Assembly (NCBI RefSeq): GCF_003853705.1
Contig: NZ_QTQI01000001.1
Span: forward strand, 575,584 to 639,583
DNA length: 64,000 nucleotides
Direction: 5' to 3'
Source: Burkholderia sp. Bp8992
GTDB lineage: Bacteria; Pseudomonadota; Gammaproteobacteria; Burkholderiales; Burkholderiaceae
Below, one piece after another: positions 19,164-64,000 of the stretch. Under the pieces are notes generated by a model. It was given only the letters and a program-made list of their open reading frames with translations, ran no database searches and had not been told where the DNA came from. How positions within the stretch are numbered: position 1 is the stretch's first letter; every line of letters begins with the position of its first letter. The position numbers and the translations under genes are program-made.

Positions 19164-20303
19164 ATGAAGTTTTCCCTCATCTACGAAGCCCAGACCACCG
19201 ACGCATCGCGCGAGGGCGACCACCGGGTGTTCAAGGAGACGGTCGAGCAGGCGCTGCTCGCCGAGCAGGTCGGTTTCGACACGATCTGGTGCGTGGAGCA
19301 CACGTCGCTGACCCACTATGCGCACATGAGCGCGCCGGAGACCTTCCTTGCGTACCTGGCCGGCCGCACGACGCGCATCGGCCTCGGCCACGGCGTCGTG
19401 TGCCTGCCGCCGGCGATGAACCACCCGATCAAGGTGGCGGAACGCGTCGCGCTGCTCGACATCCTGTCGGGCGGTCGCGTGCATTTCGGCGTCGGCAAGG
19501 GCGGCAGCCAGCAGGAAGCCGGCGCGTTCGGCTACGACCTCAACGAACTGCAGCCGATGATCGACGAATCGATGTACCTCGTGCCGAAGATGTTCGTGCA
19601 GGACGAGATCGAGCACGACGGCAAGTACATCAAGATCCCGAAGCGCCCGATCCACCCGAAGCCGTTCCAGGATCCGCACCCGCCGATGTACCTCGCGTGT
19701 ACGAACACCGATGCGCTGCTGCGCGCCGGCCAGCGCGGGATGGGCGCGCTGGTGCTCGGCTTCGGCGGCCCGGACGAGGTCGCGAAGAAGAATGCCGTGT
19801 ACCGAGAGGCATGGGCGAACCGCAAGCCGGAAGACCAGGTCGGCTTCCGCCCGACCCGGCACCTCGCGGCGCTGTGCCCGACGGTCGTGATGGCCGACGG
19901 CCAGGCCGCCCGCAAGATCGGCATCCGCGGCCAGCGCTACTTCATGGAATCGCTCGCGTACTGGTACACGGGCGGCGAGCGTCCGGACCCGGCGAAGTGG
20001 GACGACGATCTCGTGCAGGCCGACACCGGCGAGATGGTGATCCGCTCGCGCTTCGCGTCGGAGGAAGTCGTCGTCAACTTCGCCGACCCCGCGCTCGCGA
20101 TGATGAACCCGAACCACGCGTACGGCACGGTGGACGACTGCATCGGCTATGTCGGCCGCCTGCAGGAAGCCGGTGTCGACGAAGTGCTGTTCCTGTGCCA
20201 GATGGGCACGGTGCCGCACGAAGCGCAGATGGAGACGATCCGCAACATCGGCGAGCACGTGATCCCGTTCTTCAACCGCGAGAAGGAACGCGCCTGCGCG
20301 TGA
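19164..20303 (+). CDS. LLM-class flavin-dependent oxidoreductase, first gene of steroid operon 1
   Basis: The protein has 379 residues, a bacterial luciferase-like TIM barrel: MKFSLIYEAQTTD, GFDTIWCVEHTSLTHYAHMS, RTTRIGLGHGVVCLPPAMN, HPIKVAERVALLDILSGGRV and FGVGKGGSQQE. Enzymes of this class use reduced FMN or F420. The ribosome site GGAGA precedes ATG 19164. The gene is followed after 168 bp by hsaA, and the rest of the operon encodes steroid ring-A/B enzymes. None of the standard 9,10-seco steps needs an LLM enzyme, so its job is open: it might oxidise a side chain, a modified steroid or an aldehyde. HsaB could supply reduced flavin. Confidence 0.8.
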   Translation: MKFSLIYEAQTTDASREGDHRVFKETVEQALLAEQVGFDTIWCVEHTSLTHYAHMSAPETFLAYLAGRTTRIGLGHGVVCLPPAMNHPIKVAERVALLDILSGGRVHFGVGKGGSQQEAGAFGYDLNELQPMIDESMYLVPKMFVQDEIEHDGKYIKIPKRPIHPKPFQDPHPPMYLACTNTDALLRAGQRGMGALVLGFGGPDEVAKKNAVYREAWANRKPEDQVGFRPTRHLAALCPTVVMADGQAARKIGIRGQRYFMESLAYWYTGGERPDPAKWDDDLVQADTGEMVIRSRFASEEVVVNFADPALAMMNPNHAYGTVDDCIGYVGRLQEAGVDEVLFLCQMGTVPHEAQMETIRNIGEHVIPFFNREKERACA

Positions 20304-20471
20304 TGCACGGGGCCGCGCCCGTCGTCCCGTCCGGTCGGACGATGCGGCGCGGTCGCGCGAAGCCGACCATCGGTGGTGGCGAGCATCGCCCGCGGCCAGG
20401 CCGCGCCGAACAACTTTGAACGAGAGCGGGGCGCGCACCACGGCGCAGCCCCCGTTCCACAGGAGACATTC

Positions 20472-21665
20472 GTGCATCGCGACAACGATTCGAACGCATT
20501 GGCCGCCACGCTGGTCGCCCGGGCCGAGGCACTGGCGCCGGTGCTGGCCGGCCGCGCCGCGCAGGCGGACGCGCAGGGCCGGATCCCGGCCGAGACGATC
20601 GCCGACATGCAGGCCGCCGGCTTCTTCAAGGTGCTGCAGCCGAAGCGCTACGGCGGCTACGAGCTCGATCCGCAGGCCTTCTTCGACATCCAGATGGCAC
20701 TCGCGCGCGGCTGCATGTCGACCGCGTGGGTGTACGGCGTCGTCGGCGTGCACAACTGGCAGCTCGCGCTGTTCGACGAACGCGCGCAGCAGGATGTCTG
20801 GGGCAACGACCCGGCCACGCTGATCGCGTCGACCTACATGCCGGTCGGCCGCGTGACGCCGGTCGACGGCGGCTTCCGCCTGTCGGGCCACTGGAAGTTC
20901 TCGAGCGGCAGCGAACTGTGCGAATGGGTGTTCCTCGGCGCGCTGGTGCCGCCGGCCGAGGCCGGCCAGCCGCCCGAATACCGGACCTTCCTGCTGCCGA
21001 AAACCGACTACCGGATCCAGCAGGACTGGGACGTGCTCGGCCTGCGCGCGACGGGCAGCCACGACATCGTCGTCGACGACGTGTTCGTGCCCGCGTACCG
21101 CACGCACAAGGCGATCGACGGGATGATGGGCACGAGCCCCGGTCTCGCCGTCAACGCTGCACCGCTGTTCAAGCTGCCGTTCGCGCAGATCTTCGTGCGC
21201 GCGGTGTGCACGTCGTGCATCGGCGCGCTGCAGGGTGCGCTCGACGATTTCACCGGCTATGCGGCGACGCGCGTGTCGGCGAACAGCGGCGCGAAGACGA
21301 CCGACGATCCGGGCGCGCAGAGCGCGTGCGCGAACGCGGCCGTCGCGATCGACGAGATGAAGGTGCTGCTCCAGCGCAATTTCGCGGAACTGATGGCGTC
21401 GGTGACGGGCGGCCCGGCCGTGTCGATCGAGCGCCGCGTGCATTTCCGCTACCAGTCGGCGCAGGTCGCCGAGCGCTGCGCGCAGGCCGCGAACACGCTG
21501 CTGCGCTACGCGGGCGGCAACGGCATCTATCACCGCAATCCGCTGGTGCGCCGTTTCCTCGACCTGCATGCGGCCCGCGCGCACTACGCGAACAACGTCG
21601 ACCGCTTCGGCCAGAACCTCGGCGCGGTGATGCTCGGTCGCGACAACACGGACTTCTTCATCTGA
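20472..21665 (+). CDS. hsaA: 3-HSA hydroxylase, oxygenase component (HsaA/TesA2-like flavin monooxygenase)
   Basis: The protein has 397 residues with the acyl-CoA-dehydrogenase fold of group D flavin monooxygenases. Blocks shared with mycobacterial HsaA include LQPKRYGGYELDP (near residue 60), ALFDERAQQDVWG, LSGHWKFSSGSE and GLRATGSHDIVVDDVFVP. It hydroxylates the phenolic seco-steroid 3-HSA at C4 to the catechol using FMNH2 from HsaB. GTG 20472 is taken as start because AGGAGA lies 5-6 nt upstream; an in-frame ATG 99 nt earlier has no such site. It is 10 bp from kstD in the same operon. Confidence 0.9.
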   Translation: MHRDNDSNALAATLVARAEALAPVLAGRAAQADAQGRIPAETIADMQAAGFFKVLQPKRYGGYELDPQAFFDIQMALARGCMSTAWVYGVVGVHNWQLALFDERAQQDVWGNDPATLIASTYMPVGRVTPVDGGFRLSGHWKFSSGSELCEWVFLGALVPPAEAGQPPEYRTFLLPKTDYRIQQDWDVLGLRATGSHDIVVDDVFVPAYRTHKAIDGMMGTSPGLAVNAAPLFKLPFAQIFVRAVCTSCIGALQGALDDFTGYAATRVSANSGAKTTDDPGAQSACANAAVAIDEMKVLLQRNFAELMASVTGGPAVSIERRVHFRYQSAQVAERCAQAANTLLRYAGGNGIYHRNPLVRRFLDLHAARAHYANNVDRFGQNLGAVMLGRDNTDFFI

Positions 21666-21675
21666 CGAGGCCGCG

Positions 21676-23436
21676 ATGAACGACACGCAAGCACAGCAAT
21701 ACACGTTCGACGTGATCGTCGTCGGTTCGGGCGCGGGCGCGCTGCTCGCCGCGTGCCGCGCGGCCGACCACGGGCTGTCCGTCGTCGTGATCGAGAAGAC
21801 GGCGCTGTACGGCGGCACATCGGCCGTATCGGGCGGCGGCATCTGGATTCCGTGCAACCACCATATCGCCGAGCTCGGCGCGACCGATTCGCGCGAGGCC
21901 GCGCGCCGCTATGTCGACGCGTGCGTGGCCGGCGCGTCGACACAAGAACGGCTCGACGCCTATCTCGATCGCGCGCCGGAGATGCTGCGCTATCTGGAAG
22001 CGAAGACGCCCGTGCGCTTCCAGGCGCTGCCGAAATACGCGGACTATTTCCAGAAGCTGCCGGGCGCGATGCCCGGTTATCGTGCGCTCGATCCGCTGCC
22101 GTTCGACGGCGGCCTGCTCGGCGACGAGTTCGACCGGCTGCGGCCGCCGTCGCCCGGCACGCTGATCTTCGGGCGTCTGTCGGTGACGTCGAAGGAAGCG
22201 CACACCTTGTTCTCGCGCGGGCCCGGCTTCATGACGCTCACGATCAGGCAGTTCGGCCGCTACTGGCTCGATTTCCGCATGCGCCGCCACACGCGGCGCG
22301 ACCGGCGCCTGACGCTCGGCAACGCATTGATCGGCGGGCTGCGCCGTGCGCTGCTCGACCGCAACGTGCCGGTGTGGCTCGACACGCCGATGCGCGACCT
22401 GCTCGACGCGGACGGCCGCGTGACGGGCGTGCGTGCGCAGCGCTTCGGGCAGCCGGTGACGATCGCCGCGCGGCATGGCGTGATCCTCGGCGCGGGCGGT
22501 TTCGAGCGCAACCAGCCGATGCGCGAGCGCTACCTGCCGCAGCCGACCCGGGCGCAATGGAGTGCGACGCCGCCATCCAACACCGGCGACGCGATCGCCG
22601 AAGGCCACCGGCTCGGCGGCGCGCTGGCGCTGATGGAGCACGTGTGGGGCGCGCCGACGGTCCGCGTCGCGGGCGAGGAGAAGCAGCGTGCGCTGTTCGT
22701 CGAACGCAACCTGCCGGGCTGTGTGATCGTCAACGGCCTCGGCAAGCGCTTCGTCAACGAAGCCGCGCCGTATTCCGAATTCGTGCCCGCGATGTATCGC
22801 GACCATGCGCGCACCGGCGCGACCGTGCCCGCATGGATGGTGTTCGACGCGCGTTTTCGCCGCAAGTATCCGTGCGGGCCGGTCATGCCGGCGTCGATGA
22901 TGCCCGATGCGCGGATACCGGAAGCCTTTCGCGACGTGCTCGTGAAAGCCGACACGATCGATGCGTTGGCCGCGAAGATCGGCGTCGACGCGGCCGGCCT
23001 GCACGACACGCTGCGCGACATGGCGCGCTACGCGGCCACCGGCGTCGACGAAGCGTTCGGCAAGGGTGACAACGCGTTCGACACGTACTACGGCGATCCG
23101 CGCAATACGCCGAACCCGTGTCTCGGGCCGGTCGACGAAGCGCCGTTCTACGCGGCGCGGATCGACGCGGGCGATATCGGCACGAAGGGCGGGCTCGTCA
23201 CCGACGTGCACGCCCGCGTGCTGCGCGCCGACGGCGAGCCGATCGACGGCCTCTACGCGATCGGCAACACCAGCGCATCGGTGATGGGCGCGAGCTACCC
23301 CGGCGCGGGCTCGACGCTCGGCCCGGCGATGACCTTCGGGTATCTCGCCGCCGACCACCTGGCTGCTCGCGCAGCCGACGCCGGAGGCCGGCAGGCCCGG
23401 CCATCCACGACTGAACTTGACGGAGTCCGATCATGA
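21676..23436 (+). CDS. kstD: 3-ketosteroid delta1-dehydrogenase (KstD/TesH-like)
   Basis: The protein has 586 residues. An N-terminal FAD-binding motif GSGAGA (residues 17-22) is followed by GLSVVVIEK and GGTSAVSGGGIW. The C-terminus has GLYAIGNTSASVMGASYPG and GSTLGPAMTFGYLAADHL, the signature of 3-ketosteroid delta1-dehydrogenases. The enzyme introduces the C1-C2 double bond in ring A, which with 9-alpha-hydroxylation opens ring B. It overlaps hsaB by 4 nt. A related delta4(5alpha)-dehydrogenase role (TesI) cannot be excluded from sequence alone. Confidence 0.85.
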   Translation: MNDTQAQQYTFDVIVVGSGAGALLAACRAADHGLSVVVIEKTALYGGTSAVSGGGIWIPCNHHIAELGATDSREAARRYVDACVAGASTQERLDAYLDRAPEMLRYLEAKTPVRFQALPKYADYFQKLPGAMPGYRALDPLPFDGGLLGDEFDRLRPPSPGTLIFGRLSVTSKEAHTLFSRGPGFMTLTIRQFGRYWLDFRMRRHTRRDRRLTLGNALIGGLRRALLDRNVPVWLDTPMRDLLDADGRVTGVRAQRFGQPVTIAARHGVILGAGGFERNQPMRERYLPQPTRAQWSATPPSNTGDAIAEGHRLGGALALMEHVWGAPTVRVAGEEKQRALFVERNLPGCVIVNGLGKRFVNEAAPYSEFVPAMYRDHARTGATVPAWMVFDARFRRKYPCGPVMPASMMPDARIPEAFRDVLVKADTIDALAAKIGVDAAGLHDTLRDMARYAATGVDEAFGKGDNAFDTYYGDPRNTPNPCLGPVDEAPFYAARIDAGDIGTKGGLVTDVHARVLRADGEPIDGLYAIGNTSASVMGASYPGAGSTLGPAMTFGYLAADHLAARAADAGGRQARPSTTELDGVRS

Positions 23437-23951
23437 GCGATCTCACCACCCACCCGCTGCGCACCGACATGCTGCTCGCGATGCGCCGCCTCGCGCGCTC
23501 CGTCACGGTCATCAGCAGCACGCACGACGGCCGGCGCTACTCGATGTCCGCGACGGCGGTCGACTCGCTGTCGACCGATCCGCCTTCGCTGCTGATCTGC
23601 ATCAACCGCAGTGCGTCGCTGTATCCGCCACTCGATGCGGGCGCGCCGTTCTGCGTGAACGTGCTGTCCGCGCGCCACGAAGGCATCGCGATCGACTGCA
23701 GCGGCCGCCTGAAGGGCGAGGCACGCTTCACGACCGGCGAATGGCATACGTCGCCGCACGGCGTGCCGTATCTGCGCGACGCGCAGGCGAGCCTCGTGTG
23801 CGAGCAGGACGGCCGCTTCGAATACGGCACGCATACGGTGTTCATCGGGCGCATCCGCGAGGTGCTGATGAGCGGCGACGTCGATCCGCTCGTCTATCTC
23901 GACGGCGCGTATACGACGCCCGGCGCGCCGGTGGCCCGTGCGGTCGCGTGA
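23433..23951 (+). CDS. hsaB: Flavin reductase component (HsaB/TesA1-like)
   Basis: The protein has 172 residues, a flavin-reductase split-barrel: AMRRLARSVTVISSTHDGRR, YSMSATAVDSLSTDPPSLLI and CVNVLSARHEGIA. It supplies reduced flavin to the HsaA oxygenase. ATGA overlap with kstD (23433-23436) and a 15-bp gap to kshB show it belongs to the operon. Pairing with HsaA is inferred from operon membership; it could also serve the LLM oxidoreductase. Confidence 0.88.
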   Translation: MSDLTTHPLRTDMLLAMRRLARSVTVISSTHDGRRYSMSATAVDSLSTDPPSLLICINRSASLYPPLDAGAPFCVNVLSARHEGIAIDCSGRLKGEARFTTGEWHTSPHGVPYLRDAQASLVCEQDGRFEYGTHTVFIGRIREVLMSGDVDPLVYLDGAYTTPGAPVARAVA

Positions 23952-23966
23952 CGCAAGGAACCGGCG

Positions 23967-25016
23967 ATGAGCGATCCACGCTTCCACCGGCTGACCGTGG
24001 CCGACGTGATTGCCGAAAGCGACGACGCGTGCTCGTTCGTATTCGACGTCCCGGCCGCGCTGCGTGACGCATTCACGTACCGGCCCGGGCAGTTCCTGAC
24101 GCTGAACGTGCCGTGCGCGGACGCGACCGTCGCGCGCTGCTATTCGCTGTCGAGCGCACCGGGTATCGACGCGGCGCCGAAGATCACCGTCAAGCGCGTG
24201 CGTGACGGCCGCGCGTCGAACTGGCTGTGCGACCGCGTGAAGGCCGGCGACACGCTCGACGTGTTGCCGCCGGCCGGCATGTTCACGCCGCGCACGCTCG
24301 ACGGCGACCTGCTGCTGTTCGCGGGCGGCAGCGGCATCACGCCCGTGCTGTCGATCCTGAAATCGGCGCTCGTGCACGGCCGCGGGATGCTGACGCTGAT
24401 CTATGCGAACCGCGACGAACGCTCGGTGATCTTCCGCGCCGAGTTGCAGCAGCTTGCGCAGCGCCATCCGGGCCGCGTGCGCGCGATCCACTGGCTCGAC
24501 AGCGTGCAGGGCATCCCGCAGCAGCGCCATCTCGAGGAACTCGCGCGGCCGTTCAGCCGGCAGGAGACGTTCATCTGCGGGCCCGCGCTGTTCATGGAGA
24601 ACGCGCTGGCCGCGATGCTCGGCCTCGGGTTGCCGCGGGCCCGCGTGCATGTCGAGCGGTTCGCGTCGCTGCCCGATGCACCGGCGCAGGCTGCCGATAC
24701 GGCGCCGTCGAGCGCAGCGGTGGCGGTTGTGTCCGGCGACGGCGCGGCGATCGAGACGGTGCTCGACGGCGACGCGTTCGCATTCGACAGCGCGCCCGGC
24801 GAAACGCTGCTCGATGCGATGCTGCGTGCGGGCGTGCCGGCGCCGAATTCCTGCCGGATGGGGCAGTGCGGCGCGTGCATGTGCCGGATCGAGCGCGGCG
24901 AGGTCGCGCTCGACAGCAACCACGTGCTCGACGACGACGAGATCGCGGCCGGCTGGACGCTCGCCTGCTGCGCGCGGCCCGCGAGCGGCGCGCTGCGCGT
25001 GGTGTTTCCCGACTGA
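23967..25016 (+). CDS. kshB: 3-ketosteroid 9-alpha-hydroxylase, ferredoxin reductase component (KshB)
   Basis: The protein has 349 residues. An FNR-type FAD domain shows YRPGQFLTL and RCYSLSS (57-63). An NAD-binding domain has GGSGITP (120-126). A C-terminal plant-type 2Fe-2S domain has Cys296, Cys301, Cys304 and Cys334 (C-x4-C-x2-C-x29-C). This domain order and length match KshB, which passes electrons from NADH to the KshA oxygenase. The kshA gene lies about 24 kb downstream at 49175 rather than adjacent. Paa-type reductases share this layout; location inside the steroid operon supports KshB. Confidence 0.87.
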   Translation: MSDPRFHRLTVADVIAESDDACSFVFDVPAALRDAFTYRPGQFLTLNVPCADATVARCYSLSSAPGIDAAPKITVKRVRDGRASNWLCDRVKAGDTLDVLPPAGMFTPRTLDGDLLLFAGGSGITPVLSILKSALVHGRGMLTLIYANRDERSVIFRAELQQLAQRHPGRVRAIHWLDSVQGIPQQRHLEELARPFSRQETFICGPALFMENALAAMLGLGLPRARVHVERFASLPDAPAQAADTAPSSAAVAVVSGDGAAIETVLDGDAFAFDSAPGETLLDAMLRAGVPAPNSCRMGQCGACMCRIERGEVALDSNHVLDDDEIAAGWTLACCARPASGALRVVFPD

Positions 25017-25055
25017 GCCGCGACGCGCCGGCGGCGCGCACGGCCATCCTGATCT

Positions 25056-26642
25056 ATGACGATGGACAATGAAATCCTGACCACGCCCGCGCTGATCGCA
25101 CGGGCTGCCGCGCGCCACGGCGCGCATCCGGCGATCGAGTCGGAGCACGGCCGGCTGACTTACGCGGAACTCGACGCCGCGCGACTCGACGCGGCCCGTG
25201 CGCTGCTGGCGAGCGGCATCGACGCCGGCGACCGCATCGCGGTCTGGGCGCCGAACCTGCCGCAATGGATCGTCGCGGCGCTGGCGATCCACACCGTCGG
25301 CGCGATCCTCGTGCCGGTCAATACGCGGATGAAGGGAATGGAGGTCGGCGGCATCCTGCATGACAGCGGTGCGCGGCTGCTGTTCTGCTGCGGCGCCTTC
25401 CTCGGCGAATCGTATCCGGCGATGCTCGCGCCGCACCGGCCCGCGACGCTCGAGCGGGTCGTCGTGTTCGACGGAGAGCCGCCGTCCGGTGCGCGCGACG
25501 AGACGTGGAACGCGTTCCTCGCGCACGGTGCGGCGGTATCGCTGGCCGCGGTGCGCGAACGCGAGGCGCAGGTCACACCCGACACCGTGATGGACCTGAT
25601 GTTCACGTCCGGCACGACGGGCCGTCCGAAGGGCGTGATGACCGCGCACGGCCAGAACCTGCGCGCCGCGCAGGCGTGGGCCGCGATCGCGGGCGTGCGC
25701 CAGGACGACCGCTACCTGATCGTCAATCCGTTCTTCCATACGTTCGGCTACAAGGCCGGCTGGCTCGCCGCGCTGTCGAGCGGCGCGACCGTGCTGCCGC
25801 ATCTCGTGTTCCAGCCGGCCGACGTGCTGCGACGCGTCGCCGATGATCGCGTGTCGGTGCTGCCCGGGCCGCCGACGCTGTACTACGCGCTGCTCGACGC
25901 GCCCGATCGTGCGACGCGCGACCTGTCGTCGCTGCGGATCGCGGTGACGGGCGCGGCGGCGATCGCACCGAGCCTGATCGAACGGATGCGCGCGGAGCTC
26001 GGCTTCGAGACGGTACTGACCGGCTACGGGCTGACCGAATCGTGCGGCTTCGCGACGCTGTGCCGTCACGGCGACGATGCGGAGACGGTCGCCTACACGT
26101 CGGGCCGGCCGATGCCGGACGTCGAGCTGCGCATCGCCGGGCCGGGCGGCGTGCCGCTCGGCCCGGACGAGACCGGCGAGATCTGGGTGCGCGGCTACAA
26201 CGTGATGCGCGGCTACTTCAACCAGCCGGACGCGACGCGCGAGACGGTCGATACCGATGGCTGGCTGCATACCGGCGATCTCGGCTGCGTCGATGCGAAC
26301 GGCAACCTGAAGATCACCGACCGCATCAAGGACATGTTCATCGTCGGCGGCTTCAACTGCTATCCGGCGGAGATCGAACGGCTGCTCGCCGCGCATCCGG
26401 CGATCGCGCAGGTCGCGCTGGTCGGTGTGCCCGATACGCGGCTCGGCGAGGTCGGTCATGCGTATGTCGTGCTGCGTCCGGGCGCGCATGTCGATGCCGG
26501 CGAATTGAACGACTGGGCGCGCAGCAACATGGCGAACTACAAGGTGCCGCGATTTTTCACGTTCGTCGAGCAGCTGCCGACGAGCGCCGCGGGGAAGGTG
26601 CTGAAGTACCGGTTGCGCGCGGCGGCCGACGCGGCTGCCTGA
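25056..26642 (+). CDS. fadD3: Acyl-CoA ligase, FadD3-like (HIP-CoA synthetase)
   Basis: The protein has 528 residues, an ANL-superfamily ligase: P-loop FTSGTTGRPKGVM, TGYGLTESCG, GWLHTGDLG, DRIKDMFIVGGFNCYPAEIE and the C-terminal Lys in TSAAGKVLKYRLR. FadD3 activates 3aa-H-4a(3'-propanoate)-7a-methylhexahydro-1,5-indanedione (HIP) as its CoA ester, the entry to ring C/D degradation. The last gene of operon 1, 39 bp after kshB. The specificity is inferred from operon and similarity to FadD3; a general medium-chain acyl-CoA ligase is the alternative. Confidence 0.8.
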   Translation: MTMDNEILTTPALIARAAARHGAHPAIESEHGRLTYAELDAARLDAARALLASGIDAGDRIAVWAPNLPQWIVAALAIHTVGAILVPVNTRMKGMEVGGILHDSGARLLFCCGAFLGESYPAMLAPHRPATLERVVVFDGEPPSGARDETWNAFLAHGAAVSLAAVREREAQVTPDTVMDLMFTSGTTGRPKGVMTAHGQNLRAAQAWAAIAGVRQDDRYLIVNPFFHTFGYKAGWLAALSSGATVLPHLVFQPADVLRRVADDRVSVLPGPPTLYYALLDAPDRATRDLSSLRIAVTGAAAIAPSLIERMRAELGFETVLTGYGLTESCGFATLCRHGDDAETVAYTSGRPMPDVELRIAGPGGVPLGPDETGEIWVRGYNVMRGYFNQPDATRETVDTDGWLHTGDLGCVDANGNLKITDRIKDMFIVGGFNCYPAEIERLLAAHPAIAQVALVGVPDTRLGEVGHAYVVLRPGAHVDAGELNDWARSNMANYKVPRFFTFVEQLPTSAAGKVLKYRLRAAADAAA

Positions 26643-27406
26643 GCGACGACGGATTTCCGCAGGGCGCGGTGCTCGTGTTCGCGCGCGGCGGCGTCCCTTC
26701 TTGAAGTCATCGATGACGCGAGCCGAGACGCCGATCGGCTCGCTTGTCGCATCCGTACCCGGTGCGGGCAAGATGCATGCGCACGCATCGGTATTCACCC
26801 TGCCTCGTCACGCACGAGGGTGCATCGGCACCGCTTGCGCACGCCACGAGGTCACACTTTTGCAACGCTTTTCCAACGTATTCCTCTGCACACGATCGAT
26901 CGCGATGGCGACGCGCGTGCGCTGACGCGCCGTCCGGCCTCGTTCTGCTGACGTTGTGCGACCGATGCGCGATTCCGCCGATCGCGTATTTCGGCCTGGC
27001 GTGCCGAATACGGATACGTTCCTGAAACATTTCCCCACCATTGCGACCCGCAGTGTCGCGCGTGCGCGGCCGTCACGCTTTTCCCGCTTCGATTTGCGCC
27101 GCATGGCACGTGCCTTGCGGTTGACCCGGTGCCGCCGGCGCAGACGGATTCGCCAGAACGATCAGCACATCGGCGGCGTGTAACGACATCGAAACAAACC
27201 GGGGATCGGATCGGGTCGCGGGCGCCGCGTGTCGTGGCGCAAGCGCCGCGCATGTCGTATCGGTCATGCGCACGGTGCAACGCGTTCCCGATCCGTCGAA
27301 CAGCAAGCTTGCTTGCAAGGTGTCGTGCCGGGGTTCGCACCGCGCATCGCGACGAAGGCCGCGTGCGGCGGGACGCTGCGCCCGGCACGTGTCGGGGGAG
27401 GCGCCC
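26643..27406. other. Long intergenic region between fadD3 and the outer-membrane protein gene
   Basis: This 764-bp stretch shows no convincing gene on either strand; open frames are Arg/His/Cys-rich and lack ribosome sites. It contains an imperfect inverted repeat at 26985-27012 (CGTATTTCGGC / GCCGAATACG, one bulge), with no T run. It may hold the 3' end of operon 1 and the promoter of the next gene, or be the scar of lost genes. Confidence 0.5.
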
Positions 27407-28066: not shown

Positions 28067-28078
28067 ACTGCGCATCCG

Positions 28079-29776: not shown

Positions 29777-29796
29777 AAATCCGGATGGAGGAACTC

Positions 29797-30696: not shown

Positions 30697-30714
30697 AACC
30701 AGGAGGAGGCCGAC

Positions 30715-56167: not shown

Positions 56168-56183
56168 CGTGTGGCTCCTCGGC

Positions 56184-57083: not shown

Positions 57084-57096
57084 CAGGATGGTTCCT

Positions 57097-57879
57097 TTAG
57101 ATAAAGCGGACGTCGCAGCCGCCGATGCCGGAGATGTGCATCGACAGCGTGTCACCGGCCGTGACCGGAATCAGTTTCGCGAGCGAGCCGGACAGCACGA
57201 TCTCGCCGGTCAGCAGCGGCACGTCGTACGCGGCGAGCGTGTTCGCGAGCCACGCGACCGCGTCGGCAGGGTGGCCGAGCGCCGCGTCGCCGCGTCCTTG
57301 CGCGACGCGCTCGCCGTTCTTGTCGATCGTCATCTCGCACGCGGCGAGATCGAGCGTATGCGGGTCGACGCGCGCATCGCCGAGCACGTACACGCCGCAC
57401 GACGCGTTGTCGGCGACAGTGTCCTCGATGCGGATCGCCCAGTCGCGGATGCGCGAATCGACGATCTCGAAGCAGGGCGCGACGGCGGCCGTCGCGGCGA
57501 TCACGTCGGTGCGGTCGATGCCGGGGCCGCGCAGGTCGTGCGCGAGGATGAACGCGATCTCGCCTTCGGCGCGCGGCGCGATCAGCGAATCGGCGGCAAT
57601 CGCCTCGCCGGCCGCGTAGTGCATGCCGGACAGCAGGATGCCGAAATCGGGCTGGCGCACGTTCAGCATGTCCTGCACGGCCTGGCTCGTCACGCCGATC
57701 TTCTTGCCGACGACCGCTTCGCCCTGTTCGACGCGACGCTCGATGAAGCGCTGCTGGATGCGGTAGGCGTCGTCGAGCGACAGCCGGCGCGGACGGTTCG
57801 ACAGCGGCGCGACCGGCGCACGCGCGTGCCACGCGGCGTACAGTTCGTCGCCGAGTGTCGTATGCAGGCGGGAAGACAT
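57097..57879 (-). CDS. hsaE: 2-hydroxypenta-2,4-dienoate hydratase (HsaE/TesE-like)
   Basis: The protein has 260 residues of the MhpD/BphH/fumarylacetoacetase-like fold: [51 protein letters not shown] and [14 protein letters not shown] (metal-binding Glu pair), [17 protein letters not shown]. It hydrates the dienoate released by HsaD from ring A. Thirteen bp upstream of hsaG. The family assignment is firm; steroid use follows from the operon with DUF1302/1329 and proximity of hsaD. Confidence 0.9.
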
Positions 57880-57988
57880 GAAAGGGCCCTCGAATCTCGA
57901 ATGGAAAAGGCCGCCGTCGCGGGCGGCGTCGTGCGCCGGAGCGGGGCTCCGGCGCGTGGGTCGCGGCCGCGCCGCGTCAGTGGATCGA

Positions 57989-59371
57989 TCAGTTGCCCGA
58001 ACTGCGGATCGCGTCCGGCGAGAAGTACGCCTCGTTGAACTGCGGGCTGTTGTCGAGCTTCGGCATCGGGCCTTCGTTCGTCAGGCGGTCGGCGAAGTAC
58101 GCGCCGGAAATCAGGTCGTGGTAGAACACCGCGCTCGGGTAGAACGTCTTCGCGTCGAACGCATACAGCGACGTCGCGACGTTGGTGCGCCACAGCTGGC
58201 CGCGCGCATCGTAGTTGTCGGCCAGCAGCGATTGCCAGGAGTCCTCGTCGATGTACAGCACGCGCTTCGCATACTGGTGGCGATAGCCGTTCTTCAGTGT
58301 CTCCTGCAGCACCCACACGCGATGCAGTTCGTAGCGGAGGTACGCCGGGTTCTCGTGGCCCTTGGTCAGCAGCTCGCCGTACTTGATCGCGCTGTCCATG
58401 ACCTTGTAGTTGTCGTACGGCACGTAGATCTCGCGCTTGCCGACGATCTTCCAGTCGTAGCGGTCGCCGGGGCCGTTGTACAGGCGGTCGTCGTCGACAG
58501 TGCGAAAACCGCCCGCGCCCGACGGCTGGTCGTACCCGTACTCGGGCGCCTGGCGCACGCGCCGCGTGCCGGGGTTGTACATCCACGTGCGCGACGCGTT
58601 GTCGGCGCCGGCCTTGTCCCAGTTCTGGAAGCCGACGATCAGCGAGCCGCGGTCCGACAGCGGCAGCTCCGTCGCGTTGCGGTAGTACGTGCGGTTGTTC
58701 AGGTCGTTCTTCACGTCGTACTTGCCGACGTTGCGCGGCGAGTAGATGTCGTAGCGGATCTTGCCCCACGCGATGTTGCCGTCCGAGTACACGACCGCCT
58801 GGTCGTAGGTCGCCTGCTCGGCGCCGATCGCCGACGAGAAGCGCTGGTTCCACAGCAGCTCGGCGGCCGTCTTCGGGATCGGGTACGGCACCGTCGGCGG
58901 CGCGTTCGTCAGGCCGTTCGCATCGGGCGTCATCGTCGACTCGGGCGCGTACGTGCGGATGTCCTTGTAGAGGGCATCCGGGAAGCGGAAGTCGCGATGG
59001 CTCGGATAGACGTTGATCTTGAACGTGGCCGGATAGCGCTTGAACATCGCCTTCTGGCCGTCGGTCAGGTGCTCGGCGTACTGCGCCATGTTCTCCGCGG
59101 TGATCGTCGCGATCGGTTTCTCGCTCGCGAACGGATCGGGGTAGCGGCTGCCGCGCTTGTACTGCACGTCGGGCGGCGTGCCGAGCCACTTGCCGGTCCA
59201 CTCGGGCACGCCGTTGTCCTTGCTCGCGGCGCGCACCGCGCCGACCGGCGTCAGCGGGCCGTCGAGCGCCTTCAGGTCGTCCTGCGTGACCTTCGGGAAC
59301 GACGCCGTCGCGACGACCGCGCACGCGGCCATCACCGACGCGCGCAGGAGGGGAAGATGAATGCGTTTCAT
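57989..59371 (-). CDS. DUF1329 exported protein
   Basis: The protein has 460 residues. A signal peptide (MKRIHLPLLRASVMAACAVV, then TASF) is followed by a beta-rich LolB/LolA-like DUF1329 domain: YDIYSPRNVGKYDVKNDLNN, RDRFYDWKIVGKREIYVPYD-type text with YNGPGDRYDWKIVGKREIY. Such proteins are always next to DUF1302 barrels in clusters for hydrophobic compounds and are thought to bind the substrate in the periplasm. It is 40 bp after DUF1302 and 109 bp before hsaE in the same direction. Biochemical role is inferred. Confidence 0.82.
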   Translation of the reverse strand: MKRIHLPLLRASVMAACAVVATASFPKVTQDDLKALDGPLTPVGAVRAASKDNGVPEWTGKWLGTPPDVQYKRGSRYPDPFASEKPIATITAENMAQYAEHLTDGQKAMFKRYPATFKINVYPSHRDFRFPDALYKDIRTYAPESTMTPDANGLTNAPPTVPYPIPKTAAELLWNQRFSSAIGAEQATYDQAVVYSDGNIAWGKIRYDIYSPRNVGKYDVKNDLNNRTYYRNATELPLSDRGSLIVGFQNWDKAGADNASRTWMYNPGTRRVRQAPEYGYDQPSGAGGFRTVDDDRLYNGPGDRYDWKIVGKREIYVPYDNYKVMDSAIKYGELLTKGHENPAYLRYELHRVWVLQETLKNGYRHQYAKRVLYIDEDSWQSLLADNYDARGQLWRTNVATSLYAFDAKTFYPSAVFYHDLISGAYFADRLTNEGPMPKLDNSPQFNEAYFSPDAIRSSGN

Positions 59372-59411
59372 ATCGATCCTCGTAGTGCTGAATGACGAGC
59401 GGCCGAGCCGC

Positions 59412-60977
59412 TCAGAAGTGGTAGGTCGCCGTGGCCAGCACGTAGTCGCGATCCGACAGCGGACGCGTGACCGGATTCGGCGAACCGAGGAACTTCGCGT
59501 AGACGAGCGACAGCTGCAGGTTGCTCAGGCGCGTGAACGTCACGCCGGCCGTCACGCGGTGATCGCCCTGGCCCGTCAGCGAGCCGAGCGCGCCGGCGAG
59601 CGGCGACGTGCCCGTCAGGTCGTGCGTGTAGGTCAGCGGCACGTCGAGATCCCAGCCGTTGAACACGTTCTTGTAGCTGAGCGTCCACGCGATCTCCATC
59701 GCGAGCGCGTTGCGTGAATTCGCGAGCGTGGTCGAGCCGTCGAGCGCCGAGATGCTGCCGGCGTGCACGTACGTGAGTTCGCCGATCAGCGATTGCGAGT
59801 TCGCGAGGAAGCTCGGCCCGATCGAGTAGATGCCGGACAGGTTGGTCTGCAGCACGTTCGCGCGCGTCGATTGCGGGCCCGTCGGCGTATTGACGAGCAC
59901 GGCCGCGCCCTGGCGGTACGACACTTCGCCCGCGACGTTCACGGGGCCGACCTGCGTCGAGAAGCTCGCGCCGGTCAGCTTGATGTTGCTGAAATAGGTC
60001 TGCTGATACTGGAGCGTCGGGAAGTACGTCGTGACGACGCTCGGGTTCATGTCGTTGTAGTGCAGGTGGTACAGGCCGATCTCGGTGTCGCCGAGCACGC
60101 GCACGCGCGCGCCGATACCCCACTGGTTGCGCGCGCTCGGCTTGTCGTCGGGGCCGCGCGGAATGATCATGCCGCCCGGGCCGATGATGTATTGGGCACC
60201 GGGGCCCGTGACGTCGGAGTAGCTCCAGTACGTGCCGGGCGCGGTCAGCCGGTTCTGCTGGTACGAGAACTGGTAGTAGCCGAGCAGGCTGAAGTTCGGC
60301 GTGATCTGCCACTGCGTCGAGATCTGCGGCACCGGCAGCAGGATGTCCTTCACCTCGGCGCCGGCCATGTACGACTTGGTCGCGTCAGACGGCCCCTGCG
60401 CGCCGGCGATGTTCGGGAAGAACAGGCTTTCGCCCCATGCGACCACCTGGTCGCCGACCTTCACGTTCAGGCTCGTCGAACCGATGTGGAAGGTGTTGTA
60501 CGCATACGCGGCGAGCAGCGTCGTGTGGCCCCCCGACCAGTAGCGCGCATCGCTCGTGAAGTCGTTGTACTGGCCAGCATGGTTCACGGTGCCCGGCGCG
60601 TCGTTGTAGTTCGGGCGGTGATAGGCCTGGTCGTAGAACGTGTCCGCGCGGACGAACACACCCCAGTCGTCGTGCTTCAGGTTCACTTCGCCGAGCAGGC
60701 TGACCTGGTTCTCGATCAGCTTGTTCTTCGCGAAGTTGCGGTCGCCGTCGTCGCCGTTGATGTTCGCCGGCGTCAGCAGATTGCCGCTCGGTGCGCGGGT
60801 GCGCATGCCGAGGCCATAGCTGAGCGTGAACGTGTAGTCCAGCGTCGTGTCGGCGCCAAGCTCGATCGTGCTGCCGGCGTGCGCACCGGGAACGGCGCAC
60901 GTCAGCAGCGCGGCGGCCAGCGTCGACAGCGTGGCGGTCGCCCGCTTGTCGGTACGGCGCGAAATCCGTTGATGCAT
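59412..60977 (-). CDS. DUF1302 outer-membrane beta-barrel protein
   Basis: The protein has 521 residues. A Sec signal (MHQRISRRTDKRATATLSTL, then AALLTCAVPGAHA) precedes alternating amphipathic strands, including FTLSYGLGMRTRAPSGNLL and TYWSYSDVTGPGAQY. It ends in Phe (LATATYHF), the outer-membrane insertion signal. DUF1302 proteins are large barrels seen in steroid and other hydrophobic-compound clusters and probably form uptake channels. ATG 60977 has GAGGAGA. It is the first gene of operon 3, and a CTAG-core motif lies 85 bp upstream. Confidence 0.85.
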   Translation of the reverse strand: MHQRISRRTDKRATATLSTLAAALLTCAVPGAHAGSTIELGADTTLDYTFTLSYGLGMRTRAPSGNLLTPANINGDDGDRNFAKNKLIENQVSLLGEVNLKHDDWGVFVRADTFYDQAYHRPNYNDAPGTVNHAGQYNDFTSDARYWSGGHTTLLAAYAYNTFHIGSTSLNVKVGDQVVAWGESLFFPNIAGAQGPSDATKSYMAGAEVKDILLPVPQISTQWQITPNFSLLGYYQFSYQQNRLTAPGTYWSYSDVTGPGAQYIIGPGGMIIPRGPDDKPSARNQWGIGARVRVLGDTEIGLYHLHYNDMNPSVVTTYFPTLQYQQTYFSNIKLTGASFSTQVGPVNVAGEVSYRQGAAVLVNTPTGPQSTRANVLQTNLSGIYSIGPSFLANSQSLIGELTYVHAGSISALDGSTTLANSRNALAMEIAWTLSYKNVFNGWDLDVPLTYTHDLTGTSPLAGALGSLTGQGDHRVTAGVTFTRLSNLQLSLVYAKFLGSPNPVTRPLSDRDYVLATATYHF

Positions 60978-61062
60978 GGTGTCTCCTCTTGGGGTATCGA
61001 CGACGGTCGACTGTGTGTGTTGTCGTGAGAGGCAGAGTAGGGAGATCGCGGTAGCAGGGAAT

Positions 61063-61081
61063 CGTCGAAATGAACTAGATG
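61063..61081 (-). promoter_or_regulatory. Candidate regulator site with CTAG core upstream of operon 3
   Basis: In gene orientation it reads CATCTAGTTCATTTCGACG and matches the site before the SDR at 15081-15099 at 14 of 19 positions, all differences transitions. It starts 85 nt before the DUF1302 start. A flanking GGGAA / TTCCC dyad (61057-61061 and 61084-61088) surrounds the core. A second CTAG lies at 61088-61091. Confidence 0.4.
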
Positions 61082-61131
61082 ACTTCCCTAGGACTGGAAA
61101 CGAATTGCCCGCACCGCTTGCATTGCGCGGG

Positions 61132-61911
61132 TCAGCGCGCGTCGGCCTGCGCGGCCGACAGGAACGCGGGCCGTTCGCCGCCGCCGTCGAGCCGCAGGTT
61201 CGTGCCCGACGTGTACGACGCATCGGGCGACGCGAGGAACAGGCAGGCGGAGGCAACGTCGTCGGGCGTCGCGAGCCGCCCGGCTGGAATCGTCGCGCGG
61301 ATCGCGTCGAGCGCGGCGTCGTCGCCGTAATGGCCTTCGGTGGCCGATTCGGTCTGCACGAGGCTCGGGCTGATCGCGCACACGCGCACGCGCGGCGCCC
61401 ACTCGACCGCGAGCGACGCGACCGCATTGACGAGGCCCGCTTTCGCGGCGCCGTACGCGGCCGTGCCGGGCGACGGTCGCGACGCGCTGACGCTTGCGAT
61501 GAACAGCATCACGCCGCCTGCCGGTTGAGCCTGCATGATCGCGTTCACGCGCTGCGCGAGCTGCAGCGGCGCGATCAGGTTCAGCCGCACGATCGAATCG
61601 GTGAAGCGCGGCGATGCATCGGCCGCGAGCGCGAACGGCGAGCCGCCCGCGTTGTTGACGAGCACGTCGAGGCCGCCGGCCGTCTCGCGGATCGCCGCGA
61701 GCATCGCATCGACCTGCTCGACGTCGCGCAGGTCGGCCGCGATGAAGGCCGCCGAGCGGCCATCGGCCGAAGGTGGCGCATCGGGTGCACTGCGCCCGCA
61801 GACGAACACGCGCGCACCTGCCGCGAGAAACCGTTCGGCGATGCGCCGCCCGATGCCCTTGGTGCCGCCCGTCACGAGCACCGTCTTGCCGCTGTAGTCG
61901 AATCCGTTCAT
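61132..61911 (-). CDS. SDR oxidoreductase upstream of operon 3
   Basis: The protein has 259 residues: VTGGTKGIGRRIAERFLAAG, NNAGGSPFAL, FIASVSASRPSPGTAAYGAA (Ser/Tyr) and KAGLVNAVASLAVEW. It ends GTNLRLDGGGERPAF. A GGAGG site precedes ATG 61911. It is 154 bp before DUF1302 on the same strand and may be its operon leader or a separate unit. A hydroxysteroid dehydrogenase is plausible; the C-terminus does not distinguish substrates. Divergent from hsaD. Confidence 0.72.
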   Translation of the reverse strand: MNGFDYSGKTVLVTGGTKGIGRRIAERFLAAGARVFVCGRSAPDAPPSADGRSAAFIAADLRDVEQVDAMLAAIRETAGGLDVLVNNAGGSPFALAADASPRFTDSIVRLNLIAPLQLAQRVNAIMQAQPAGGVMLFIASVSASRPSPGTAAYGAAKAGLVNAVASLAVEWAPRVRVCAISPSLVQTESATEGHYGDDAALDAIRATIPAGRLATPDDVASACLFLASPDASYTSGTNLRLDGGGERPAFLSAAQADAR

Positions 61912-62048: not shown

Positions 62049-62885
62049 ATGACGACCCTCACGACGCCGCCGGCCGGCATCTTCACCGACGTACCGGGCG
62101 GCATGTGCCTGCACCATTTCGAGGCGGGCGAGGGCCGGCCGGTGGTGTTCATCCACGGCAGCGGCCCGGGCGCCAGCGGTTTCAGCAACTTCAAGCACAA
62201 CGTTCCGGCGTTCGCGGCGGCCGGCTACCGCGCGATCGTCGTCGACCTGCCGGGCTACGGGCAGTCGTCGAAGCCGTCCGACGTCGCCTATACGCTCGAT
62301 TTCTTCGTCGGCGCGCTGCATGCGCAACTGGCCGCGCTCGCGATCGGGCCGGCCGTGCTGCTCGGCAATTCGCTGGGCGGCGCGATCGCGCTCAAATACG
62401 CGCTCGACTACCCGGACGAAGTCGACGGGCTGATCATGATGGCGCCGGGCGGGGTCGAGGATCGCGACACCTATTTCCGGATGGAAGGAATCCAGCGGAT
62501 GGTGCAGCTGTTCACCAATCGCCAGATGAATGACGACACGATGCGCGAGCTGCTGACGCTGCTCGTGCACGATCCGGCGATCGTCACCGACGCGCTCGTC
62601 GCCGAGCGGATGAAGGTGTGTGTCGAGCAGCCGACCGAGGTGCTGTCGACGATGAGCGTGCCGAACCTGACCGGTGCGCTCGGCGACCTGCGCTGCCCGA
62701 TACTCGGTTTCTGGGGCACGGACGACCGCTTCAATCCGGTCGGCGGCGCGCTGAAATTCCTCGAACACTGTCGCGACGCGCGCTTCGTGCTGATGAACCG
62801 GTGCGGCCACTGGGTGATGGTGGAACACGCCGATTATTTCAATCGGGAATGCCTCGATTTTCTTGCGACGCGGAACACGCGATAA
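62049..62885 (+). CDS. hsaD: Meta-cleavage product hydrolase (HsaD/TesD-like)
   Basis: The protein has 278 residues, a C-C bond-cleaving alpha/beta hydrolase. The nucleophile Ser108 is in GNSLGG, the acid near Asp225 in GTDDRFNP and the His254 in NRCGHWVMVEH; HGSGPGASGFSNFK forms the oxyanion region. HsaD hydrolyses the HsaC product 4,9-DSHA to HIP and 2-hydroxyhexa-2,4-dienoate, joining ring A and ring C/D branches. GAAGGAGAC precedes ATG 62049. An SDR and etfB follow on the same strand. BphD-type enzymes share the motifs; the context favours HsaD. Confidence 0.9.
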   Translation: MTTLTTPPAGIFTDVPGGMCLHHFEAGEGRPVVFIHGSGPGASGFSNFKHNVPAFAAAGYRAIVVDLPGYGQSSKPSDVAYTLDFFVGALHAQLAALAIGPAVLLGNSLGGAIALKYALDYPDEVDGLIMMAPGGVEDRDTYFRMEGIQRMVQLFTNRQMNDDTMRELLTLLVHDPAIVTDALVAERMKVCVEQPTEVLSTMSVPNLTGALGDLRCPILGFWGTDDRFNPVGGALKFLEHCRDARFVLMNRCGHWVMVEHADYFNRECLDFLATRNTR

Positions 62886-62947
62886 CGCTGGATGCCCTTG
62901 AAGGCCGCCGCGCATGCGGGCGGCCCGTATGAATCTACGGAGACACC

Positions 62948-63736
62948 ATGAAACTCATCGAAGAACTGTTCGACCTGCGCGGCAAGGTGGCCGCGATCAC
63001 CGGCGGCGCGCGCGGCATCGGCGCGGAGACGGCGCGCACGCTGGCTGCGGCCGGCGCGAGTGTCGCGATTCTCGATGTGCTGTCGCAACCGGCGGAAGCG
63101 CTGGTCGGGGAAATCCGCGCGCAGGGCGGCCAGGCCGCGTTCTGGTCGCTCGACGTGACGCAGGAGGCCGACGTCGCGCGCGTGTTCGGCGAGATCGTCG
63201 CGCGCTTCGGGCGCCTCGACGTGCTCGTGAACAACGCGGGCATCGAAGGGCACAACGTGCCGACGCACGAGCTCACGCTCGCGCAGTGGCAGCGCGTGCA
63301 GGACGTGAACGTGAACGGCGTGTTCCTGTGCACGCGTGCGGCGATTCCGCATATCGACGCTGCCGGCGGCGGGTCGATCGTGAACCTGTCGTCGATGTAC
63401 GGGATCGTCGGCGGCCCCGACGTGCCCGCATATCATGCGTCGAAGGCCGCGGTGCGGATGATGGCGAAGGTCGACGCGATGCTGTACGCGGCGAAGAACA
63501 TCCGCGCGAATTCGGTGCATCCCGGCTATATCCGCACGCCGATGCTCGAGGACGCGTTCCGCCAGATGGGGCAGGACCCCGATCGCGCATTCGAGTACAT
63601 GCAGACGCACGTGCCGATGGCGAAGATCGGCAGCCCGCGCGACATCGCGGCCGGCATCCTGTATCTCGTGTCGCCGGCAGGCCGCTACGTGACGGGCGCG
63701 GAGCTCGTGATCGACGGCGGGTATACCGCGCGCTGA
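62948..63736 (+). CDS. SDR oxidoreductase (3-hydroxysteroid- or acyl-CoA-type)
   Basis: The protein has 262 residues: [49 protein letters not shown] and [16 protein letters not shown] (Ser/Tyr/Lys), [27 protein letters not shown] site precedes ATG 62948. It lies 62 bp after hsaD and 38 bp before etfB. Classical SDRs of this kind in steroid clusters often oxidise 3- or 17-hydroxyls, but sequence alone does not show it. Confidence 0.75.
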
Positions 63737-63774
63737 TACGGCGTGGCGCACGCAATGGAACAGGAGACAGGCAG

Positions 63775-64000
63775 TTGAAAGTGTTCGTGGCAGTGAAACG
63801 CGTGGTCGACGCGAACGTGAAGATCGGCGTGAAATCCGACCGGACGGGTGTCGACATCGCGAACGTGAAGATGTCGATGAACCCGTTCGACGAAATCGCC
63901 GTTGAAGAAGCCGTGCGGTTGAGGGAAGCGGGCGTCGCGACCGAAGTGATCGCGGTGTCGGTGGGCGTGACGCAAGCGCAGGAAACGCTGCGCACGGCGC
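63775..64000 (+). CDS. etfB: Electron-transfer flavoprotein beta subunit, 5' end (runs off window), TTG start
   Basis: The frame starts at TTG 63775 with CAGGAGACAG upstream and is open to the window end (75 residues). It reads [20 protein letters not shown] and [19 protein letters not shown], the conserved N-terminus of EtfB/FixA. EtfAB carries electrons from acyl-CoA dehydrogenases to the quinone pool, fitting the four FadE proteins of operon 2. The TTG start would be missed if only ATG/GTG were considered. The etfA gene is expected just beyond the window. Confidence 0.88.

Follow-up and report, generated by a model that had tools for sequence, protein, structure and literature searches.

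A probable 9,10-seco steroid degradation locus of Burkholderia with a luciferase-like monooxygenase predicted to act on progestogens

Steroid hormones are pollutants, and it matters which soil bacteria remove androgens and progestogens. We analysed a 64 kb stretch of Burkholderia sp. Bp8992 DNA (contig NZ_QTQI01000001.1, positions 575,584 to 639,583; hereafter the window), in which genes for steroid-nucleus catabolism lie together with a gene for a luciferase-like flavin monooxygenase (LLM). Genes were called by codon use; 40 window proteins were scanned against NCBIfam, further proteins, in a partly overlapping set, against Pfam, and ten were searched against the sequences of the PDB. Related loci came from one HsaC scan of genome contigs, which gave 71 loci (21 of them displayed for synteny), and from whole-genome searches around G001, the nearest genome, and of PLSDB; genomes and loci carry our G and L numbers where they need to be told apart.

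Enzymes of the steroid locus

The LLM and the enzymes assigned to steroid catabolism are encoded as follows, with short-chain dehydrogenase/reductases abbreviated as SDR and electron transfer flavoprotein as ETF.

19149–20303, plus strand: LLM, predicted type II Baeyer-Villiger enzyme for C21 20-ketosteroids (Bac_luciferase 158.5 bits)
20472–21665, plus: HsaA, 3-HSA hydroxylase oxygenase (NCBIfam HsaA 394.5 bits, cut-off 450; PDB 2rfq 277.5 bits)
21676–23436, plus: KstD (PDB 7p18, 3-oxosteroid 1-dehydrogenase, 664 bits; NCBIfam 593 bits, cut-off 788)
23433–23951, plus: probable HsaB, flavin reductase (flavin-reductase family matches; position between KstD and KshB)
23997–25016, plus: probable KshB, 3-ketosteroid 9-alpha-hydroxylase reductase (PaaE-type reductase 233 bits; syntenic in other genera)
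25056–26642, plus: FadD3, HIP-CoA ligase (NCBIfam FadD3 829 bits, cut-off 657)
30715–31611, plus: HsaC/TesB, extradiol dioxygenase (PDB 2zi8 248.6 bits, against 172 for BphC)
31621–32514, plus: IpdA, ring C/D hydrolase (PDB CoA-transferase chains 248 bits, against 93 for glutaconate CoA-transferases)
32525–33322, plus: IpdB, ring C/D hydrolase (the same two classes, 178 against 41.5 bits)
33331–34251, plus: crotonase, PRK08290 type (468 bits, cut-off 280)
34248–35348, plus: IpdC-type nitronate monooxygenase-like flavoprotein (FabK-type 230 bits, below cut-off; synteny)
35345–36184, plus: EchA20-like crotonase, PRK07938 type (386 bits, cut-off 260)
36181–37350 and 37380–38450, plus: two acyl-CoA dehydrogenase subunits (pimC-like and IpdE2-like, below cut-offs)
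38447–39598, plus: FadA6-type thiolase, PRK07801 (706 bits, cut-off 591)
39632–40510, plus: SDR, PRK07791 (479.5 bits, cut-off 373)
40514–41746 and 41743–42939, plus: two acyl-CoA dehydrogenase subunits (IpdE2-like and pimC-like, below cut-offs)
42936–43736, plus: IpdF-type SDR, PRK07831 (454 bits, cut-off 336)
43733–44221, plus: MaoC hydratase (profile match)
44234–45439, plus: second thiolase (profile match)
49175–50254, plus: KshA, Rieske oxygenase (KshA_C 247.9 bits; PDB 4qdc 398 bits; Rieske and iron motifs)
55136–56167, minus: HsaF aldolase (TIGR03217 554 bits, above cut-off)
56184–57083, minus: HsaG acylating aldehyde dehydrogenase (TIGR03215 480 bits, above cut-off)
57097–57879, minus: HsaE hydratase (TIGR03220 444.5 bits, above cut-off)
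61132–61911, minus: SDR, PRK07856 type, possible hydroxysteroid dehydrogenase (378.8 bits, cut-off 255)
62049–62885, plus: probable HsaD/TesD, meta-cleavage product hydrolase (NCBIfam HsaD 193.8 bits, against 189.8 for BphD)
62948–63736, plus: SDR, possible hydroxysteroid dehydrogenase (PRK07231 235.6 bits; syntenic in Caballeronia sp. SBC1, G285)
63781–64000, plus: first 73 codons of etfB, truncated at the end of the window (Pfam ETF 34.4 bits)

Strong PDB matches of KshA are limited to 3-ketosteroid 9-alpha-hydroxylases (398 bits, with the next family at 72). HsaC scores 308.9 bits with the NCBIfam HsaC model against 281.4 with BphC, and retains the motifs GHAVL, HHSLA and GFDLE; its PDB match 2zi8, a chain named there as probable BphC, we take to be M. 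tuberculosis HsaC, and 6co6 and 6con, matched by IpdA and IpdB, are presumably mycobacterial IpdAB structures. These scores, found within one locus, support the steroid-nucleus catabolic reading given in a preliminary description of the DNA. Most of the enzymes listed there (KstD, KshA, HsaA, HsaC, FadD3, IpdA, IpdB, HsaE, HsaG and HsaF) are recovered by profile or solved-structure matches, while HsaB, KshB and HsaD are weaker by sequence alone and are assigned partly by context; HsaB, for instance, matches RutF (105.9 bits) and HpaC (89.9 bits) better than the HsaB model (67.4 bits). The grouping of hsaC, hsaD and kshA with biphenyl enzymes that the description had raised is, compared by score, not found for hsaC or kshA and ambiguous for hsaD. 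Four acyl-CoA dehydrogenases, to which we give no individual FadE numbers, stand where FadE30/31/32/33-like enzymes had been named, and the IpdC, IpdF, EchA20-like and FadA6 entries correspond to an IpdC-type flavoprotein, an IpdF-type SDR, two crotonases and a FadA6-type thiolase, with the exact EchA name left unassigned. The names IpdC, IpdF and FadA6 for these products, and EchA20 as the M. tuberculosis counterpart of the PRK07938-type crotonase, are our assumptions: no EchA20-named chain was among the 21 PDB matches of the EchA20-like protein, a search that gave crotonases, and the PDB search with the FadA6-like protein gave thiolases, FadA5 among them, without the expected name. ETF, listed as present, is represented in the window only by the start of etfB; 67 of 72 residues of the fragment are identical to etfB of G034, where etfA comes next. 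Absent from the earlier list were LLM, a LuxR-type regulator, and the Ycf48/RND and DUF1329/DUF1302 genes described below.

The locus thus encodes KstD and a two-component KshAB (KshB judged by family and position), HsaAB, HsaC and HsaD (HsaB weak and HsaD ambiguous with BphD), HsaE, HsaF and HsaG, and, for the C/D rings, FadD3, IpdAB, IpdC, IpdF, crotonases, acyl-CoA dehydrogenases and a thiolase, several of them under assumed names. We consider it very probable that these genes constitute a near-complete aerobic 9,10-seco steroid degradation pathway. Two sets of scores weigh against that assignment: HsaA, HsaB, HsaC, HsaD and KstD all fall under the curated NCBIfam cut-offs, and HsaD is nearer to BphD (177.7 bits) than to HsaD (147 bits) in the PDB search. 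Following the reaction order of the steroid pathway, KstD and KshAB would open ring B and aromatise ring A, HsaAB would hydroxylate 3-HSA, HsaC would cleave ring A and HsaD would hydrolyse the product. HsaE, HsaF and HsaG, of types that serve other meta-cleavage pathways too, would convert the C5 fragment to pyruvate and propionyl-CoA, and the C/D-ring propionate (HIP) would be degraded by FadD3, the acyl-CoA dehydrogenases, the crotonases, IpdC, IpdF, IpdAB and the thiolases, with ETF accepting electrons from the acyl-CoA dehydrogenases. Androgen use by the source organism would fit the growth on testosterone of another member of its family, described below. No cholate or cholesterol side-chain gene was recognised by annotation among the scanned window proteins, a search with side-chain reference proteins not having been made.

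Both Burkholderia and Cupriavidus have been predicted to degrade steroids, with most of the cholate side-chain genes lacking; within this family, Cupriavidus necator ATCC 17699 is described as growing on testosterone (PMC4810484). B. cepacia GG4 stands among steroid-degrading bacteria in a tree legend (PMC5790920), and TesB of B. cenocepacia J2315 among androgen-degrading proteobacteria (PMC5062160). Because such clusters, which share genus or family and the core pathway with the window, are already predicted, the present locus is a further case of a known kind; the available parts of their descriptions mention neither LLM nor LuxR copies nor a transporter (PMC4810484, PMC5790920, PMC5062160). 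We read the locus as ordinary and well conserved, of a kind expected from the earlier predictions for the genus, with a specific and testable extension to progesterone that is considered below.

Layout and conservation in Burkholderiaceae

With the LuxR gene at 15134–16309 counted in, the locus starts near 15134 and not at 19164, where the preliminary description had placed its start. A first plus-strand group (19149–26642) holds LLM, HsaA, KstD, HsaB, KshB and FadD3. The second (30715–45439, plus) holds HsaC, IpdA, IpdB and the C/D-ring genes and is followed by Ycf48, RND and KshA up to 50254. A minus-strand group (55136–61911) consists of HsaF, HsaG, HsaE, DUF1329, DUF1302 and an SDR, and a plus-strand group from 62049 of HsaD, an SDR and the start of etfB. 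Eight adjacent gene pairs overlap by 4 bp, and every core gene in the window is an open reading frame. The reported 24 kb between kshA and kshB agrees with the coordinates (KshB ends at 25016, KshA starts at 49175); in place of the three operons proposed, strand and spacing suggest at least four catabolic transcription units.

The window shares 87–95% nucleotide identity with 22 loci titled Burkholderia (L001–L022, of 26 so titled), and a 3.5 Mb B. arboris replicon covers 88% of its 25–49 kb section at 94.8%. Many of the species behind L001–L022 we take to belong to the cepacia complex, and the window is probably second-chromosome DNA of a cepacia-complex Burkholderia. Gene order is collinear with that of Caballeronia sp. 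SBC1 over three adjoining stretches (L102–L104), which run through RibB, a crotonase, HYD (an Abhydrolase_3 protein discussed below), a LuxR gene of another type, Glx, LLM, HsaA, KstD and HsaB; then a flavoprotein, an SDR, KshB, FadD3 and HsaC through KshA; and finally HsaF/G/E, DUF1329, DUF1302, an SDR, HsaD and a further SDR. The window differs in an MFS gene between LuxR and Glx, in the presence of two or more genes from KshA to HsaF, and in a variable 4 kb stretch from FadD3 to HsaC; the part of the window that the fetched Burkholderia loci cover is likewise syntenic with them except at 26.6–30.6 kb. Because of this collinearity the layout is, contrary to what had been supposed, not distinct but a trait shared across the family. 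Of the 65 genomes of our Burkholderia set, 35 have an HsaC orthologue scoring above 300 bits, none of them above the family's curated cut-off; this genus set overlaps the family-wide draw used below, and the two are not independent.

The variable FadD3–HsaC interval (26643–30700) contains a CarO-like porin match, an acyltransferase and a PIN-domain gene. In L057 (B. stagnalis) and L070 (B. paludis), hsaC is truncated and most of the segment that matches about 31.5–50 kb is gone; the steroid pathway looks lost there. G034 and G017 have a further module elsewhere in the genome, which encodes a SnoaL-like protein together with SDRs and a flavoprotein; in G034 (L094 9590–15180), where the flavoprotein is of the FAD-binding-2 type, it lies about 78 kb from hsaC. 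The FAD-binding-2 flavoprotein is found in 35 of the 65 Burkholderia genomes, all of them LLM genomes. A recent island carried in by the tyrosine recombinase at 12976–14169 (minus strand) was considered and rejected: the recombinase stands in the same surroundings, at 94–95% identity, in G034 and L070, and because these are conserved it is probably no recent arrival.

The luciferase-like monooxygenase and a predicted entry of C21 steroids

The window LLM shares 65% identity with an LLM encoded on N. aromaticivorans plasmid pNL2; the pNL2 gene adjoins a LuxR gene and has a gene annotated as steroid delta-isomerase close by. The N. aromaticivorans LLM in turn is 88% identical to the LLM of Caenibius tardaugens, which is described, from crude extracts and mutants, as a Baeyer-Villiger enzyme converting progesterone to testosterone acetate and as active on progesterone, pregnenolone and 1,2-dehydroprogesterone (PMC12239570). 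In our tree, 18 proteobacterial rows, N. aromaticivorans LLM included, are split from three outgroup rows at 100/100, and the window protein combines the luciferase-like domain with membership in this clade. Among the matches listed from open-licence literature, the C. tardaugens paper was the only one to combine LLM, steroid and progesterone, and no title or abstract start linked Burkholderia to Baeyer-Villiger degradation of progesterone; Burkholderia does not appear in the available part of that paper (PMC12239570).

The distribution of LLM was compared with that of HsaC in a draw of 299 Burkholderiaceae genomes from 25 genera, with thresholds of E ≤ 1e-100 for LLM and E ≤ 1e-90 for HsaC. 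LLM occurs in 48 genomes (six genera) and HsaC in 52 (seven genera), and all 48 LLM genomes have HsaC as well; the two lie on one contig in 45 of these and within 25 kb of each other in 43. Outside the family, LLM is encoded upstream of hsaC in the fetched DNA of six of ten Pseudomonas loci, in the order HsaA-LLM-HsaC in L045.

LLM is probably an enzyme for progesterone-type C21 steroids, which it would convert by Baeyer-Villiger oxidation to 17-acetoxy C19 steroids (progesterone to testosterone acetate), thereby feeding C21 steroids into the pathway. Through LLM, the range of substrates may extend to progesterone, beyond the testosterone and androstenedione named in the preliminary description. 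In the same-strand group headed by LLM, HsaB comes two genes after HsaA, and we infer a common transcript for LLM and hsaA. HsaB may perhaps serve as a shared source of reduced FMN (FMNH2) for HsaA and LLM, an assignment that we regard as tentative. In the C. tardaugens progesterone route the flavin reductase is described as unsettled and the acetate hydrolase as unknown (PMC12239570). A candidate for the latter, guessed from its position, is HYD, encoded outside the window. Its gene lies within about 4 kb of LLM, with LuxR between, in G285, G213, G146, G279 and G017. In seven other Burkholderia genomes, the distance from HYD to hsaC was measured as 178–237 kb; in G034 it is 226 kb, and HYD has a LuxR copy and a RibBA-type gene alongside. 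A close orthologue (at least 75% identity to the G017 protein) is present in exactly the 36 of the 65 Burkholderia genomes that have a full-length LLM, and weaker relatives are common in other genomes. A C21 progestogen route built into Burkholderiaceae, in which LLM cleaves the C17 side chain, HsaB serves both HsaA and LLM, and HYD removes the acetate, is a possibility to which, taken as a whole, we give somewhat less than even chances. If the LLM reading is true, progesterone use can be predicted from the genome sequence for six of the 25 sampled genera, the flavin reductase and acetate esterase still sought for the 2025 progesterone pathway gain candidates in HsaB and HYD, and a steroid-linked RND transporter becomes testable.

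Among the closest described systems is the pdc cluster of C. tardaugens (BVMO, TetR, LuxR and LLM, where BVMO is a Baeyer-Villiger monooxygenase), in which, as here, an LLM relative lies beside LuxR in a steroid degrader; that cluster includes a type I BVMO and is separated by 12.8 kb from the one for testosterone (PMC12239570). In the window, by contrast, LLM is the first gene of the hsaA-kstD-hsaB-kshB-fadD3 group and has a flavin reductase gene nearby. No type I BVMO was recognised among the scanned window proteins, no dedicated search having been made. The best NCBIfam model for LLM is an F420 subfamily (123 bits, cut-off 166.9); F420 dependence was provisionally set aside, as that model is below its cut-off and the closest solved chains are luciferase-like or luciferase proteins.

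Several observations weigh against this account of LLM. The link to the assayed C. tardaugens enzyme is indirect, by way of the N. aromaticivorans protein, whose locus tag is given in two ways; the assays used crude extracts, and deletion of LLM alone only lengthened the lag on progesterone, the type I BVMO being redundant with it (PMC12239570). The predicted structure of LLM is poor (pLDDT 53.5), and the solved type II Baeyer-Villiger enzyme 4uwm reaches only 33 bits. A gap of 168 bp separates LLM from hsaA, so that a shared transcript is only putative, and a promoter and terminator scan of 14900–31000 gave no excess over shuffles. The Fisher test for co-occurrence (p 2.7e-51) ignores shared ancestry. 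Four of the 52 HsaC genomes (G159, G187, G206, G224) have no LLM match at the threshold, LLM and HsaC lie 35 kb apart in G009 and 66 kb apart in G010, and they are on different contigs in G255, G286 and G310. In the genus search, G026, a 480-contig assembly, has LLM with no HsaC match at E ≤ 1e-60, and the LLM match of G028 spans 209 residues only. LLM was not seen in the fetched DNA of four of the ten Pseudomonas loci (L047, L051, L055 and L060; for L051 this is 1.4 kb upstream only).

The near constancy of LLM admits another explanation, in which the locus degrades steroids and LLM acts at a step shared by every steroid substrate, with a C19 or C/D-ring ketone as one possible target. An accessory entry enzyme might be expected to be lost more often than LLM is among the HsaC genomes (present in 48 of 52), and the six Pseudomonas loci point the same way. 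Comamonas testosteroni TA441, however, has the testosterone pathway and is reported to lack an LLM homologue (PMC12239570); the C. tardaugens relative acts on C21 steroids, as set out above, and four HsaC genomes have no LLM match at the threshold. We regard a common step as unlikely, though as the most serious competitor to the progestogen assignment.

That the locus is a decaying remnant no longer supporting growth in this strain is improbable. The window has no close match to the SDR that follows FadD3 in 17 of 22 Burkholderia loci (L001–L022), nor to the flavoprotein and the SDR that Paraburkholderia encodes between HsaB and KshB, and L057 and L070 have lost large parts; yet the core genes of the window are all open, several with the 4 bp overlaps noted, and in G034 and G017 the SnoaL/SDR/flavoprotein module is situated elsewhere. 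A locus devoted mainly to a different compound, polycyclic or aromatic (biphenyl or diterpenoids, for instance), with borrowed steroid labels, would accord with the BphD-like HsaD and with HsaB and KshB fitting general reductase families better than steroid models, but it is highly improbable and was rejected on the scores of KshA, IpdAB and HsaC, which like HsaA are nearer to steroid-enzyme chains (those of IpdAB and HsaC as we assume them to be) than to other solved families, FadD3 moreover exceeding its curated cut-off.

Regulator, transporter and neighbouring genes

The remaining features associated with the locus are a regulator, two pairs of putative transporter genes and a small protein divergent from LLM.

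15134–16309, minus: LuxR-family regulator of 391 aa, TesR/TeiR-type (GerE/LuxR helix-turn-helix)
18553–18903, minus: Glx, small glyoxalase/VOC-family protein, divergent from LLM (Pfam Glyoxalase 27 bits)
45617–46552, plus: Ycf48/BNR protein, AmeC-like (PSII_BNR 59.9 bits)
46647–49106, plus: HAE3-family RND transporter, AmeD-like (TIGR00921 HAE3 167.6 bits, below cut-off)
57989–59332, minus: DUF1329 LolA-like protein, AmeB-like (389.9 bits)
59412–60977, minus: DUF1302 protein, AmeA-like (433.2 bits)

The LuxR protein, with its helix-turn-helix and its place in the steroid cluster, is of the kind represented by TesR/TeiR, which is described as needed for induction in C. testosteroni, and probably switches the pathway on; by description, the tes/scd genes of that species offer the same kind of pathway together with a LuxR-type regulator (PMC6678751). 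In Cupriavidus (L035, L041 and L042; 61–62% identity) a homologue precedes hsaC on its strand at a distance of no more than 3.3 kb, and in Pseudomonas L047 (43%) the two genes are divergent. At E ≤ 1e-80, 37 of the 65 Burkholderia genomes have a match: the 36 that carry LLM and, in addition, G058. The number of copies reaches four. The predicted structure has a pLDDT of 69.8, and its fold matches, mostly phytochrome and VqmA-type chains, have TM-scores of 0.18–0.32 by query length among the 50 listed, which gives a hint, no more, of a GAF/PAS-like sensor part. In G010 and G013 the LuxR match is at about 41%.

All four component families of AmeABCD, described in Castellaniella defragrans as DUF1302, DUF1329, COG4447 (AmeC)/Ycf48 and an HAE3 RND protein (PMC6394551), are present in the window, the RND protein below its model cut-off. 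The RND protein was scanned from 46491, and its start was set at 46647 by comparison with G056. The genes do not form one contiguous cassette, which counts against equating the two systems: they stand as two separate pairs 8.9 kb apart (45617–49106, plus, and 57989–60977, minus), each beside steroid genes, and the AmeABCD substrates are monoterpenes (PMC6394551). Because the genes are split, the transporter may work like AmeABCD but is not classed as a member; it would probably move hydrophobic steroids or intermediates across the envelope. In the Caballeronia locus, Ycf48, RND, DUF1302 and DUF1329 occupy the same positions as in the window. In G279 and G146, KshA is preceded by Ycf48 and RND, and one or two genes separate it from RND. 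No link between DUF1302 and steroids was found in the open-licence literature searched.

Counterparts of Glx occupy the same place in G279 (61%), G213 (83%), G285 (83%) and G146 (51%). In the nearest genome (L080 3151–10017 of G001:C53), a module between an MFS gene and HsaF contains a second KshA (60% identity), a FadD3-like ligase (55%), an SDR and a LuxR homologue (41%). The DNA corresponding in G034 to that beyond the window end (L076 9039–12776) encodes a Dabb-domain protein, a zinc-type alcohol dehydrogenase and two SDR-like proteins, which resemble, by description, the progesterone-induced Dabb and oxidoreductase genes of C. tardaugens. ARAGORN places a 97-base tRNA-Asp at 41608–41704 (plus) within the acyl-CoA dehydrogenase gene 40514–41746, probably a false positive. 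Near the start of the window, at 4152–5844 (plus), a sigma-70-family (ECF-like) sigma factor gene is followed by one unmatched gene and then a gene of a heavy-metal-resistance family.

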